A stretch of 42,970 bases of DNA from a virus. Below the pieces are notes generated by a model. That model was given only the letters and a program-made list of their open reading frames with translations. It was not told the DNA's origin and made no database searches. Each line of letters starts with the position of its first letter. The first letter of the stretch is position 1. A program made the position numbers and the translations under genes. Of this stretch, positions 1,484 to 41,291 are shown one piece after another. Where the stretch lies: the IMG/VR virus record IMGVR_UViG_3300013102_000017, positions 1-42,970 of that record. One strand, 5' to 3'.

Positions 1484-1735
1484 ATGGCAATTCAGTTCAA
1501 AGAAATTGACGACATAGCTCAACGGACAGAGCAGAGACTTTCTAAGTCTCATGTTGATGGCTCAAGTCCATCTGTCGTCTCCACTCCAAAGCCCAAGCGA
1601 GGCCGCCCACCAAACGGCTTCGACAAACTGGCTTACAACCGTCAATTCATGGCAGACAAACGCGCCGCCACCAAACTAGGAATATCCGTAAAGGAATTCA
1701 GAGCTGCCAGGAATACCCCTTCCCAAGCCAAATAA
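1484..1735 (+). CDS. Small basic protein with AT-hook-like motif
   Basis: 83 residues. KPKRGRPP at about residues 36-43 is a classic AT-hook core (RGRP), which binds the minor groove of AT-rich DNA. It is followed by a segment (NGFDKLAYNRQFMADKR) similar to one in the next gene product (NTFDRKAYMAEYMRQY), so the two genes are probably distant duplicates. DNA binding is inferred from the motif only. Confidence 0.6.
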   Translation: MAIQFKEIDDIAQRTEQRLSKSHVDGSSPSVVSTPKPKRGRPPNGFDKLAYNRQFMADKRAATKLGISVKEFRAARNTPSQAK

Positions 1736-6408: not shown

Positions 6409-6792
6409 ATGCCAGCAGGACGCCCAACAGATTACACAAAGACAATGGGTGATGAGATCCTGAAGCTTATGGCTCAGGGTCTTTCGCTTGCTGCAGCGGC
6501 TGCTGAAATTGGTATTCATCGTCAACGTGTTTATGAATGGGTAGACAGGCATCCTGATTTTGCGGACACTGTAAAGCTGGCGCAGTCAAAGAGACAGCTA
6601 TTCCTTGAGCGTAGGCTTCTGGATACTAGCTTGGCAGGCCCTCAGATTACCTCAACCATCTTTGCACTCAAGAACACCAATCACGAAGACTGGCGCGATA
6701 AGCGCGAGGTAGAGCATTCCGGAAATATGGAAGTCACCTCTAAAGAACAGAGAGACGCAGCCGTTGCAGCCGCTACCCGCGCCGACCGCTGA
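6409..6792 (+). CDS. terS: Terminase small subunit
   Basis: 127 residues. The N-terminal helix-turn-helix (about 10-45: MGDEILKLMAQGLSLAAAAA, then EIGIHRQRVYEWVDRHPDF) is the DNA-recognition domain typical of small terminases. A helical middle (about 55-100) likely forms the oligomer, and a charged tail follows. It recognises phage DNA and hands it to the large subunit. Its 3' end overlaps the large-subunit gene by 29 bases, the usual pairing. Confidence 0.85.
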   Translation: MPAGRPTDYTKTMGDEILKLMAQGLSLAAAAAEIGIHRQRVYEWVDRHPDFADTVKLAQSKRQLFLERRLLDTSLAGPQITSTIFALKNTNHEDWRDKREVEHSGNMEVTSKEQRDAAVAAATRADR

Positions 6793-9070
6793 AGACTTTG
6801 CATTCAGCCGTCTCATCTCCTACGCAGCCTACCAATGGCCTGGATACAAAGACGCCTATCATCACAGGCTCATAGCTCGTCACCTAGAGGCAGTAGAGCG
6901 AGGCGATATCAAGCGCCTTATGATCACGATGCCTCCGCGCCACGGAAAGTCCATGCTGGCGTCTGAGTTCTTCCCCGCATGGTATATTGGCCGCAATCCA
7001 GATCACTACGTCGTCACAGCCACATACGCTCAGGAGCTAGCCGATGACTTCGGACGCAAGGTCAAGAACCAGATTGAGGACGATGCTTACCAAGCCATTT
7101 TCCCCGGCGTTTCTCTTGCTGATGACTCTAAATCTGCAAAGCGCTTTCATATTGACGGCTCTCTCGGTGGTTATGAACACTCTACCGGGCAAAGAGGCGC
7201 TTTTTATGCTGTTGGCGTTGGTGGGCCTCTTACAGGTCGCGGCGCTCATCTTCTGCTCATTGATGATCCAGTCAAAAACAGAGAAGACGCAGAATCAGAA
7301 GTAATCCGCAAGAAGACGAAAGACTGGTACACCTCTACAGCTTATACACGCCTCATGCCTGGGGGCAGAATTGTCATCATTCAGACTCGTTGGCATGAGG
7401 ATGATCTGGCCGGTTGGCTTCAGACTGAGCATGGGCATGAAGGATGGGTTGTTCTCAATCTTCCGGCCATCAATGAGGCTGGTGAGGCGTTATGGCCTGA
7501 GCAGTACGACATTGGCGCTCTAGAGCAAATCAAACGCGCACTGCCTCCCCGTGATTGGTCGGCACTATACCAACAGGCCCCAAGCCCTGAGACAGGCGAC
7601 TATTTCAAGCGAGAATGGATTCACCTCGTAGACAAAATGCCACCCAAGGAAACGCTATCGGTCTATGGCGCTTCTGACTATGCAGTAACCGCAGATGGAG
7701 GCGACTACACGGTTCACGTTGTAGTAGGCGTTGATCATGAGGGGCGCATGTGGCTGCTGGATATGTGGCGTCAACAGGCAAGTTCAGACGTATGGGTAGA
7801 GGCATTCTGCAACCTAGTCCGCAAGTGGAAACCGATTGGATGGGCTGAGGAAACAGGGCAGATCAAGTCAGGTGTAGGACCGTTCCTTGTCAAACGTATG
7901 CTTGAAAGCCAGTCCTACGTCGCTCGTGAGCAGTTCCCCACTCGTGGTGGAGACAAGGCAATCCGTGCGCAGTCTATCCGTGGACGCATGGCGCTGCAGG
8001 GTCTGTATATCCATCGTGATCAGCCGTGGCTATCGGATCTCATAAGCGAGATGATGAGCTTTCCCGTTGGCGTGCATGATGACCAGTGCGTGACTGGCGA
8101 GACCCTTGTATCTACGCCTTATGGACTAAAGCGAATGGACTGCCTTAAGGTTGGTGATGGTGTTATGACACCTGAAGGAGAGCGCACAATTCTAGCTCAT
8201 GAGAAAACCAGCGTATCCGCAGATCTGGTTCGCATATCAATGAGTAATGGCGGTTACTTGGATTGCACTCCCAATCATCCTGTTCATGTTAAAAACAAAG
8301 GCTTTGTTCGCGCCGATGCATTGGGTATAATGGACGAATTAACGTTCATTGGAGAACCTGTATGCAAAGAGGAAGTTCAAAGGCCGATTTGGTGGAATAT
8401 CTCGGCAATCGATATCTACGCTATCCAGAAGGAAAGAGCCGAACGCATCAGCGATATTATTATGGCACAGAACCAAGGCGCGGGTTCCTCCATCGCCACA
8501 AGTGGGAAGATGCCAATGGGCCAATCCCCGACGGATATCACATCCACCATATCGACGGCGACACCACAAACAACGAGCTATCCAACCTTGAGTGCTTATC
8601 AGCCAAGGATCATCGCCAGCGCCATCCAATGGACGAAGAGCAATACAGCAGACAAATGGAGCATCTTGAACGCATTCGCGACAAGGCTTCAGAGTGGCAC
8701 AAATCTCCTGAGGGGCTGGCTTGGCACAAGCAGCATGGCAAGAAGTCTTGGGAGGGCCGTGAGCCATTCAAAACGATTTGCGTTGAGTGCTTGTGGACGT
8801 ATCAAGCCTACTTCGAGCGATCAAAGTTCTGCTGCCGTGCATGTGCTCAGCGTAACAGAGCTAAGCGAAAGAAAGCCGGTCTATAATATCACGGTTGCGG
8901 GTGAGCATGTCTATTACGCTAATGGTATCCTCACCCATAACTGTGACGCTCTTGGCCTCTGCGGGCAGTTGATGGATAGAATGTTCATGGGCAACAAGCC
9001 AAAGCAGCCGCAACGTAAGCTGGAGATTGGGGCTATTTATGCTCCTGCATTGCCAAGGGTGCGGCGCTAA
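6764..9070 (+). CDS. terL: Terminase large subunit interrupted by an intein
   Basis: 768 residues from TTG 6764. The ATPase domain has a Walker A-like PPRHGKS (57-63), Walker B LLLIDDP (163-169) and a coupling motif IIQTRW (205-210). The RNase H-like nuclease domain has D305 (GASDYAV), EE (362-363) and the HDD pair (438-440). Directly after HDDQ, at C442, an intein of 285 residues begins; it ends at N726, and the C-extein continues with CDALGL. After splicing the enzyme would be about 483 residues, a normal size for this family. It packages DNA through the portal and cuts the concatemer. Splicing should restore the HDDQ-CDALG segment at the nuclease site. Confidence 0.92.
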   Translation: MQPLPAPTAEDFAFSRLISYAAYQWPGYKDAYHHRLIARHLEAVERGDIKRLMITMPPRHGKSMLASEFFPAWYIGRNPDHYVVTATYAQELADDFGRKVKNQIEDDAYQAIFPGVSLADDSKSAKRFHIDGSLGGYEHSTGQRGAFYAVGVGGPLTGRGAHLLLIDDPVKNREDAESEVIRKKTKDWYTSTAYTRLMPGGRIVIIQTRWHEDDLAGWLQTEHGHEGWVVLNLPAINEAGEALWPEQYDIGALEQIKRALPPRDWSALYQQAPSPETGDYFKREWIHLVDKMPPKETLSVYGASDYAVTADGGDYTVHVVVGVDHEGRMWLLDMWRQQASSDVWVEAFCNLVRKWKPIGWAEETGQIKSGVGPFLVKRMLESQSYVAREQFPTRGGDKAIRAQSIRGRMALQGLYIHRDQPWLSDLISEMMSFPVGVHDDQCVTGETLVSTPYGLKRMDCLKVGDGVMTPEGERTILAHEKTSVSADLVRISMSNGGYLDCTPNHPVHVKNKGFVRADALGIMDELTFIGEPVCKEEVQRPIWWNISAIDIYAIQKERAERISDIIMAQNQGAGSSIATSGKMPMGQSPTDITSTISTATPQTTSYPTLSAYQPRIIASAIQWTKSNTADKWSILNAFATRLQSGTNLLRGWLGTSSMARSLGRAVSHSKRFALSACGRIKPTSSDQSSAAVHVLSVTELSERKPVYNITVAGEHVYYANGILTHNCDALGLCGQLMDRMFMGNKPKQPQRKLEIGAIYAPALPRVRR
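8087..8941 (+). mobile_element. Intein in the terminase, with its endonuclease gene in another frame
   Basis: Intein residues 1-285 correspond to terminase residues 442-726. Block A is CVTGETLVSTPYG with Cys1. Block B is TPNHPVH with the TxxH pair. Blocks F and G are VYNITVAGEHVYYANG and ILTHN, followed by Cys+1. All residues needed for splicing are visible. Between block B and block F (about intein residues 92-266) the protein frame has no LAGLIDADG or HNH motif. It reads as a serine/threonine-rich, low-similarity linker. In the same DNA a different frame encodes a complete HNH endonuclease (8362-8886). The element is therefore a splicing domain plus an overprinted homing gene. Confidence 0.88.
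8362..8886 (+). CDS. HNH homing endonuclease nested out of frame inside the intein
   Basis: 174 residues, ATG preceded by GGAGA 6 bases upstream, so it can be translated on its own. The HNH core is at about residues 54-89: PIPDGYHIHHIDGDTTNN, then the N-L-E segment and H84/H88. This is the classic phage HNH homing type. A C-terminal zinc knuckle has C140, C143, C157/158 and C161 followed by a basic tail. It lies in the +2 frame relative to terL and stops at 8884-8886, exactly where intein block F starts. Its likely target is an intein-free terL of a related phage. Confidence 0.85.
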   Translation: MQRGSSKADLVEYLGNRYLRYPEGKSRTHQRYYYGTEPRRGFLHRHKWEDANGPIPDGYHIHHIDGDTTNNELSNLECLSAKDHRQRHPMDEEQYSRQMEHLERIRDKASEWHKSPEGLAWHKQHGKKSWEGREPFKTICVECLWTYQAYFERSKFCCRACAQRNRAKRKKAGL

Positions 9071-33075: not shown

Positions 33076-33365
33076 CACCGCCACTCAGAAGTGAATGGAA
33101 TCTCGTCCCCTTCAAGATCATCATGGAAGTTGGCTTTAGTCTGCCTCGCCGGTTCTTGGCGCTGAGGCTTAGACTGTTGCTGCTCCTTTGGCTTAAACGC
33201 CAGACTGAAGAAACGACCGTTATTCCCTTCCTTCAGCCATCCATTGATCCACATCTCAACGCCGTTGATCATGACGGTTCCCTGGTAGTCAGGGTGTGTA
33301 TCTTTTTCCTTCCGTGTATTCCGGAAAAGAGCGCCGCTGTTATCCTTCTGTTCAAACTTGCTCAT
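33075..33365 (-). CDS. SSB-like / DUF736-like single-strand DNA-binding protein
   Basis: 96 residues. [39 protein letters not shown] and [11 protein letters not shown] form a small OB-fold of the phage DUF736-like type, followed by a Q-rich, then acidic tail ([10 protein letters not shown]) like SSB C-termini. It lies just downstream of the ERF gene, as an annealing partner would. Confidence 0.75.
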
Positions 33366-34069
33366 TCGCCAGCATCCAGGTTCGAGTGATATCTTTCGTC
33401 TACGATAATGCCGCCAACGGCATCCGCGATCTGCTTCTCAGGTGATGCGGTAGCCAATTCCTTGCCGCGCTGCGTCCATTCCTTCTTAAGCTCTGAATCC
33501 CAATCATTAGGAAGCTTGCGACGAAGCTCCATAACGTCGGCATCCGTAAACCACCGTCGCATGTCGTCAACGCTGTTGATTTTGCGCATGTCGTCTTGGA
33601 GGTATTTGTACGCCTTCCTGGCTTCTTCGTTATTTGGCTTTTTAGGCTCTTGAGCGGGTACGTGTTCGATGCTTTCCGTATCAGGATCGTCACCGGTCTC
33701 AAGGCCAAGCGCCTTTAGGAGAGCATATTTGACCGCATAGCTCATAGCTTTCCCAGGACCCTTGTCCTGCGTATCAATTCCGTATCCGAACGTAGGCACA
33801 TCGAAGAAATCCGAAGGCTCGTCAATGTTGACAAAGCGAACCGACATAGAGCATTCAGCGCGGTTCCCATCATGGGAATGATCGCAACGGACAGGGTAGT
33901 AAACGATACCGTTCTTGAGCAAAACAGGGCGAACCTTTGCCGTCACTGCATCGTGAGACACAATCGTGTAGCTCATGCCCTTCTTGGATTCTTTTTGGAT
34001 ATAATCAACCTCACCCATAGCATCAGCAAGGCGCTGATGCACGTTTTTATGTTTCTGAATTTCTGTCAT
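33362..34069 (-). CDS. erf: ERF-family single-strand annealing protein
   Basis: 235 residues with AGGGGA upstream. N-terminal core: [20 protein letters not shown], then [13 protein letters not shown], and [20 protein letters not shown], the ERF signature ending in G-D-D-P-D. The C-terminus is charged. ERF promotes annealing and recircularisation of phage DNA. Its own promoter is at 34094-34122. Confidence 0.88.
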
Positions 34070-40610: not shown

Positions 40611-41291
40611 GTGATTCATTACCACGGGACGCCTATTACGCCTGTGGCCGCGCTGATGGATGTAAGGGGATGCCACTTCTGCGTTTCTCATGCCAATCCT
40701 CAAGATGTTGAGCGTGTCCACCAAATTGGACAATCTGTGATGCTTGATAACGGAGCATTTTCAAAATGGAAAAAGGGGAAAGAAACGAATTGGGAAAAGT
40801 TCTACGAATGGTGCGAGAGATGGCTGCAGTTCCCGACGACATGGGCAGTAATTCCTGACGTGATTGACGCGGGGTCTCAGATGCAGGACGCCCTAATAAG
40901 GGAATGGCCATTCGGACAGCGTGGAGCACCGGTTTGGCATATGGATGAACCAGTCACACGCCTTCTCAAGCTCACAGACGAATGGGGAAAGGTTTGCATA
41001 GGTTCGACAGACATTTATGCGGTTGTTTTGTCGGACGACTGGAAGCGCAAGATGGATGAAGTTTGGAACGAAGTATCTAAGCGTCACAGGTTTCTACCTT
41101 GGCTCCACATGCTTAGAGGAATGCAGCTCAGCGGCGGAATTTATCCGTTCGCATCGGTTGACAGTACAGATATTGCTCAGAACCATCACAGGGATCAAAA
41201 CACTCCCCGAAAGATGGCTTTGAGATGGGATGCACTTCAGACGCCAGGACACTGGCACGTTAAAGAACACGAACAGATGGAATTGGTTTAA
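40611..41291 (+). CDS. DpdA-like (TGT-superfamily) transglycosylase
   Basis: 226 residues from GTG 40611. Motifs in the order expected of the TGT/DpdA barrel: MLDNGAFS (44-51; compare the DSGGFQ motif of TGT), PDVIDAG (82-88), GSTD (131-134), LHMLRG (165-170) and ASVDSTD (181-187) with a candidate nucleophile Asp. DpdA enzymes exchange guanine in DNA for a 7-deazaguanine such as preQ0. The adjacent gene is a VUT-type transporter, which supports this. No queC, queD, queE or folE gene is present, so precursor would come from outside. The assignment is from motifs, not a search. Confidence 0.6.
   Translation: MIHYHGTPITPVAALMDVRGCHFCVSHANPQDVERVHQIGQSVMLDNGAFSKWKKGKETNWEKFYEWCERWLQFPTTWAVIPDVIDAGSQMQDALIREWPFGQRGAPVWHMDEPVTRLLKLTDEWGKVCIGSTDIYAVVLSDDWKRKMDEVWNEVSKRHRFLPWLHMLRGMQLSGGIYPFASVDSTDIAQNHHRDQNTPRKMALRWDALQTPGHWHVKEHEQMELV

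Follow-up and report, generated by a model that had tools for sequence, protein, structure and literature searches.

The terminase gene (terL) of the virus analysed here contains an intein whose middle part is written over, in another reading frame, by a complete HNH homing-endonuclease gene. This double-coded layout is real and widespread, since it was recovered in more than 100 related viral and prokaryotic sequences. In textbook inteins, the endonuclease is an in-frame domain, so that there is no nuclease apart from the intein. The insert found in the window, by which we mean the whole stretch of 42,970 nucleotides, departs from this canonical arrangement, since its HNH sits in the +2 frame. 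We consider it very probable that the insert is a homing mini-intein with an endonuclease translated separately from an internal start, and thus a dual-coded mobile element of terL. The parts of this locus are as follows.

6764 to 8086, plus strand: terL N-extein, with the ATPase and most of the nuclease domain (Terminase_6N, E = 6e-12; phrog_38 terminase, E = 1.5e-113)
8087 to 8941, plus strand: intein of 285 aa, Cys1 to Asn285, matching Pfam Intein_splicing and TIGR01443, with a predicted Hint fold and a site that is empty in close relatives
8087 to 8361, plus strand: N-terminal splicing half with blocks A and B (CVTGETLVSTPYG ... LDCTPNHPVHV), pLDDT ~97, dN/dS 0.27 versus L081 in the terL frame
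8351 to 8354, plus strand: Shine-Dalgarno-like GGAG, 7 bases 5' of the HNH ATG, with SD enrichment over 91 clusters
8362 to 8886, plus strand: HNH homing-endonuclease ORF, 174 aa, ATG to TAA, +2 frame relative to terL (HNH_3, E = 1.1e-16; pLDDT 93; dN/dS 0.21 versus L081)
8363 to 8836, plus strand: terL-frame reading of the HNH DNA, a low-confidence intein linker at about residues 93-250 (pLDDT mostly 43-55; dN/dS >1 in the terL frame)
8488 to 8616, plus strand: HNH_3 domain (Pfam match), residues 43-85 of the HNH ORF
8879 to 8941, plus strand: blocks F and G (VYNITVAGEHVYYANGILTHN), in which the HNH stop TAA at 8884-8886 arises from the block F codons for Tyr and Asn
8942 to 9070, plus strand: terL C-extein from Cys+1 (CDALGLCGQLMDRM...) and the terL stop, placed by alignment to the empty-site terL of L399, where HDDM is followed directly by VDAIALCGQLMD

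The preliminary description of this locus, made from the letters alone, had proposed these coordinates for the intein and the HNH ORF, and all of them are right. As it had also stated, the terL frame stays open over the HNH: terL is a single frame of 768 codons (6764-9070, counted from the listed TTG; the real start may differ) that continues unbroken through the insert. The insert is close to the end of the TerL nuclease domain, its Cys1 codon being at 8087, Asn285 at 8941 and Cys+1 at 8942. The splicing blocks claimed for terL are in place, with A, B, F and G all represented (C1, TPNH, VYN...GEHVYYANGILTHN, HN285 and C+1), and the intein is matched by Pfam Intein_splicing (E = 2e-10) and TIGR01443, together with a TIGR01445 match below its cut-off. 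In the AlphaFold2 model, residues 1-90 and 251-285 reach a pLDDT of ~97 and the residues in between mostly 43-55; the best structural match of the two splicing halves is the gp41-1 intein, with a Hint fold and a target-normalised TM-score of 0.86. The nucleophile residues, the modelled fold, the open host frame and the existence of an intein-free homologue thus identify the insert as a standard-class Hint intein that is predicted to splice.

Profile searches of the window intein found no endonuclease domain in the terL frame, in line with the claim that its middle part is devoid of such a motif. The complete enzyme described for 8362-8886 is there in the other frame, with its ATG, a GGAG ribosome site, a TAA stop and, besides the HNH_3 domain, a match to the PHROG HNH endonuclease (E = 4e-23). 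Its AlphaFold2 model, whose underlying alignment was built without three phage-record rows, has a pLDDT of 93. A Foldseek comparison of this model with the PDB gave no significant match, I-HmuI being at the top (E = 0.41). The end of the gene coincides with block F as had been noticed: the stop TAA is formed by the third base of the block F Tyr codon (TAT) and the first two bases of the Asn codon (AAT), so that the HNH terminates within block F.

To see how general this layout is, we used the HNH as a query against viral and genome collections and classed the matches with profiles for the HNH and for both intein ends. An out-of-frame HNH within a continuous intein was found at 121 HNH places, which form 91 clusters at 80% HNH identity; the HNH is in the +2 frame of the host gene in 115 of the 121 and in the +1 frame in the other 6, and an in-frame HNH was seen in none of these 121 continuous-intein cases. 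Cys1 is present in 89 of the 91 clusters and Asn followed by Cys or Ser in all 91. Within the HNH family, H62, H63, N71, H84 and four Cys are invariant, the H-N-H residues and the Cys pairs being intact throughout, and the Pfam intein splicing domain was detected in 27 of 30 aligned host ORFs, a set that includes one intein-free control. Most of these inteins share a common terL position immediately 5' of a D-A-x-R-Y motif, whose Asp we take to be part of the nuclease active site. Among the relatives of the window, L081/L082 carry an intein ~45% identical to its own, with an open terL frame and an HNH at the same place that likewise ends in KAGL before the stop, and L416 is a third independent case with an intein of 285 residues, as in the window. 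The HNHs of L081 and L416 are both about 60% identical to that of the window.

Carriers among genome records are labelled as Gammaproteobacteria, Nitrospiraceae, Thermoplasmatales and Nitrosotalea, and some of these may be prophages or virus contigs binned with genomes. The records of the named carriers, Tetrasphaera phage TJE1, Acinetobacter phage Highwayman and phage LS06, annotate only a long terminase at the site and miss the nuclease. More elaborate loci were also encountered: a Clostridium MAG (L109:1331-4732) has a terL-like gene with two inteins at separate sites, each with its own out-of-frame HNH, and an archaeal Nitrosotalea MAG contig (L101:420-4793) has a terL with an out-of-frame HNH intein and apparently further large inserts. 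A second scan with an alignment of the intein C-terminal motif, biased toward this terL intein group, returned 80 loci: 75 with a full HNH out of frame, 2 with a remnant, 2 that are mini-inteins and 1 edge case. None of them had an in-frame endonuclease. The full mini-inteins, L249 and L296, are devoid of HNH. The remnants, L250 and L251, are terL inteins of ~152 aa in which only a C-terminal piece of the HNH is left in the +2 frame; they were not counted as full cases and are probable intermediates in endonuclease loss. The proposal to ask among relatives whether the HNH is in frame, out of frame or absent was answered by out-of-frame genes and a few losses.

Signals for separate translation of the HNH are found across the family. 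The HNH starts near the same place in nearly all of the 91 clusters (84 ATG, 4 GTG and 3 TTG), and anti-SD pairing upstream of these starts has a median of -5.4 kcal/mol versus -2.4 kcal/mol for other ATGs inside terL (p = 3.5e-10). In the window, this pairing is moderate (-6.4 kcal/mol), and in many relatives the SD is weak or oddly spaced. In 37 of the 91 clusters, the HNH stop falls exactly on the Tyr-Asp/Asn codons of block F; another 15 have it at a second position of that block. Ribosomal frameshifting is common in phage genes, and the HNH could accordingly be thought to lack a start of its own and to be reached by a programmed shift from the terL frame, which would produce a TerL-IntN-HNH fusion. 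In the window, the HNH frame is indeed open for ~23 codons 5' of the ATG (8293-8361). However, this scenario is at odds with the conserved and SD-enriched start and with several relatives (e.g. L022, L033, L035, L042 and L048) in which an HNH-frame stop only a few codons 5' of the start leaves little room for frameshifting, and we regard it as improbable.

Another line of evidence comes from selection, whose comparison in both frames the preliminary description had recommended. Between the window and L081, dN/dS is 0.21 for the HNH, 1.39 for the terL frame of that stretch and 0.27 for the N-terminal part of the intein, and seven further pairs gave, where estimable, 0.12-0.23 for the HNH and 1.09-1.70 for the terL frame of the same DNA, all these figures being simple pairwise estimates that are near saturation and not overlap-aware. 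In addition, the most variable positions of the HNH are its third codon positions, though these are second positions for terL. Together with the AlphaFold2 pattern, these ratios indicate that the same DNA encodes a filler in the terL frame and a folded enzyme in the other, and that the HNH is the selected sequence. Because many free-standing relatives exist, the HNH is considered as an old coding sequence, and the terL-frame reading of that stretch is newer, almost unselected and just kept open. These results also bear on the view that the HNH is a decayed and unexpressed passenger in an element that is now just a spliced insert. Expression of the HNH is a prediction here, and the mini-inteins (L249, L296) and remnants (L250, L251) show that HNH loss does occur. 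Nevertheless, purifying selection on the HNH frame in all estimable pairs, the family-wide preservation of the H-N-H residues and Cys pairs, and the confident HNH fold make such a decay unlikely.

Phage group I introns often carry HNH genes that are read independently of the host gene, which could suggest that the insert is a group I or group II RNA intron in which the intein-like frame is secondary. This interpretation has very little to recommend it, and we rejected it: with Rfam at gathering threshold, neither the window nor seven relatives matched an intron; every intein block is in place and has a high-confidence model; and the host frame stays open through the insert, which is needless for an intron. 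Even less credible is a disguise of an ordinary in-frame HNH intein by sequencing or assembly frameshifts, for which two compensating indels in one record would suffice, as the same offset recurs in 115 of 121 HNH places and in independent, divergent lineages, and as the two coding frames are open in DNA whose third forward frame is crowded with stops. An indel near 8362 or 8886, which had been named as a reason to abandon the dual-coding reading, is excluded by the same independent relatives, and an in-frame fusion, the other such reason, is absent from the 121 inteins, the 80 loci of the motif scan and 17 loci of a terL P-loop intein (see below).

Could the overlap have arisen by chance? We kept the HNH protein fixed, resampled synonymous codons and scored the openness of the other frames. 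For the window, the terL frame has 2.8 expected stops and was open in ~4% of trials, whereas the other forward frame has 13.5 expected stops and was open in 0 of 4,000 trials. Since an open terL frame arises that often, the single window is weak evidence and chance could not be rejected from it alone; the recurrence of the layout in L081, L416 and 91 sequence clusters does reject chance as its source. Across relatives, the resampling predicts 1.5-7 stops for the host frame that is commonly used and 8-31 for the alternative one. The locus L006, which has the rare +1 arrangement, has kept its frame open although 14 stops are expected. The summed log10 P is -76 over 29 loci, which should be read merely as very small because kin loci were treated as independent. 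The few stops expected in the usual host frame and the stops supplied by block F would both favour the +2 arrangement.

The distribution of the insert fits a mobile element. Of the 81 terL loci nearest to the window (itself included), 4 are occupied and 74 have a clean empty site; of the other three, 2 reach the contig end and 1 is shifted. The occupied ones are the window, L081 and its twin, and L416, which represent 3 lineages only. The closest TerL to the window, that of L399, is 91% identical and has an empty site, and the residue at +1 is usually Val in empty alleles versus Cys in occupied ones. Between the three occupied lineages, the exteins are 83-84% identical, the intein N-parts 52-56% and the HNHs 60-67%. 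In the same vein, the terL group of L038 comprises 74 empty and 6 occupied loci. Both the patchy occupation and this mismatch between extein and intein divergence are those expected from mobility. Elsewhere in the window, 33362-34069 (minus strand) encodes an Erf-like protein for ssDNA annealing; such proteins serve phage recombination, and this one could aid recombination in homing. The window also has a PHROG 'queuine tRNA-ribosyltransferase' match at 40611-41291 (plus strand), possibly a deazaguanine-type DNA-modification gene, and a tRNA-Arg with anticodon tct at 1508-1583 (plus strand).

These observations lead us to propose the following mechanism. The terL frame would be read through the entire insert, and the two Hint halves would fold together while a disordered linker of ~160 residues loops out; the intein would then excise itself and leave a working terminase. 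The DNA of the linker would also be translated as a full HNH gene in the +2 frame, from its own internal ATG and ribosome site, until codons of the intein's own block F end it. The resulting endonuclease would presumably cut intein-free terL near HDDQ^VDALG, and repair would then copy the intein across, Cys+1 codon included. The overprinted homing gene with its own start in a mini-intein, as put forward in the preliminary description, is thus supported from several sides: the layout is conserved, the HNH frame is under selection and equipped with start and stop signals, the predicted structures fit, and empty sites exist. That the HNH is expressed and active is a prediction.

Related HNHs also occur outside continuous inteins. 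Split inteins in which a free-standing HNH lies between IntN and IntC were found at 16-29 loci, depending on the threshold. Those with a related HNH ORF between the halves are mostly in terL (L014, L018, L020, L024, L097, L100, L102, L103, L107, L110, L235, L237 and L238); in L238 (Brochothrix phage BL3), the HNH is a remnant only, and L237 is Vibrio phage 1.245.O, annotated with a terminase and a 'hedgehog/hint domain protein'. Continuous, split and free-standing forms are intermixed in the HNH tree, which implies that these forms have interchanged, without indicating a direction. Besides, a different endonuclease follows the same principle: in L044 and 16 further, partly redundant loci, a terL P-loop intein carries a NUMOD4-HNH in its +1 frame (L044:1731-2633, with NUMOD4 and HNH_3; also L319-L333 and L365), and an in-frame NUMOD4-HNH was found in none of those 17. 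The P-loop intein is an independent example of an out-of-frame endonuclease. It seems fairly likely that a general second architecture exists among phage inteins, with an HNH homing gene written over the intein in a different frame, so that a single stretch of DNA gives the splicing protein and the endonuclease separately. This architecture would be the norm in this terL intein group and would have arisen more than once, in the main HNH family (largely +2, with a subgroup in +1) and with the NUMOD4-HNH; it would grade into split inteins, suggesting a path from out-of-frame invasion to natural split inteins.

In the window, one DNA stretch codes for an unstructured intein linker and for a folded nuclease that could be made independently of splicing, although the nuclease gene is bound to an essential gene that needs an open frame. 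The family also provides many natural gene overlaps with almost no protein constraint on one of the frames.

Among known systems, canonical homing inteins such as PI-SceI share with the window the Hint domain, the Cys1 and Asn/Cys+1 chemistry and an endonuclease between blocks B and F, but the endonuclease of the window is encoded out of frame and would form a protein of its own, and the middle of its intein is a disordered filler. The mycobacteriophage TerL inteins, canonical homing inteins described in 2016, are likewise inserted in terL, although in the ATPase domain and not near the end of the nuclease domain (PMC5050341). In the literature covered, the published element that comes nearest is the ShiLan domain. 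This out-of-frame HNH of a methylase has no splicing domain and, in the view of its authors, stays in the protein (PMC11855218). We confirmed its +2 frame and found its HNH to be distant from that of the window (37% over 48 aa). Both elements have a +2-frame HNH in an uninterrupted host ORF and a patchy distribution; ShiLan is devoid of splicing blocks and is not an intein, whereas the HNH of the window is enclosed by a full one, and the present layout is best seen as a variant of the homing intein. A literature search for out-of-frame endonucleases in inteins returned nothing beyond the ShiLan paper and the announcement of a genome that has a ShiLan-like insert in a methylase; judged by its title, the 2025 preprint of Gosselin et al. 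(cited in PMC11855218), which deals with actinobacteriophage inteins of 'non-canonical architecture', may overlap with this work and could remove its novelty. Phage group I introns with an HNH gene, such as that of I-HmuI, also have an HNH read independently inside an insert, and I-HmuI is the weak best fold match; however, splicing in the window would be that of a protein and not of RNA, and the intron search gave no match. Finally, the fractured genes of Dassa et al. (2009) reportedly consist of split inteins whose halves flank a free-standing endonuclease gene. They resemble the window in combining IntN, an independent endonuclease ORF and IntC in one locus, and split relatives with the same HNH family do occur. 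In contrast, the host frame of the window is unbroken (a single ORF) and splicing would take place in cis from one polypeptide, a layout that may offer a route between continuous and split inteins.
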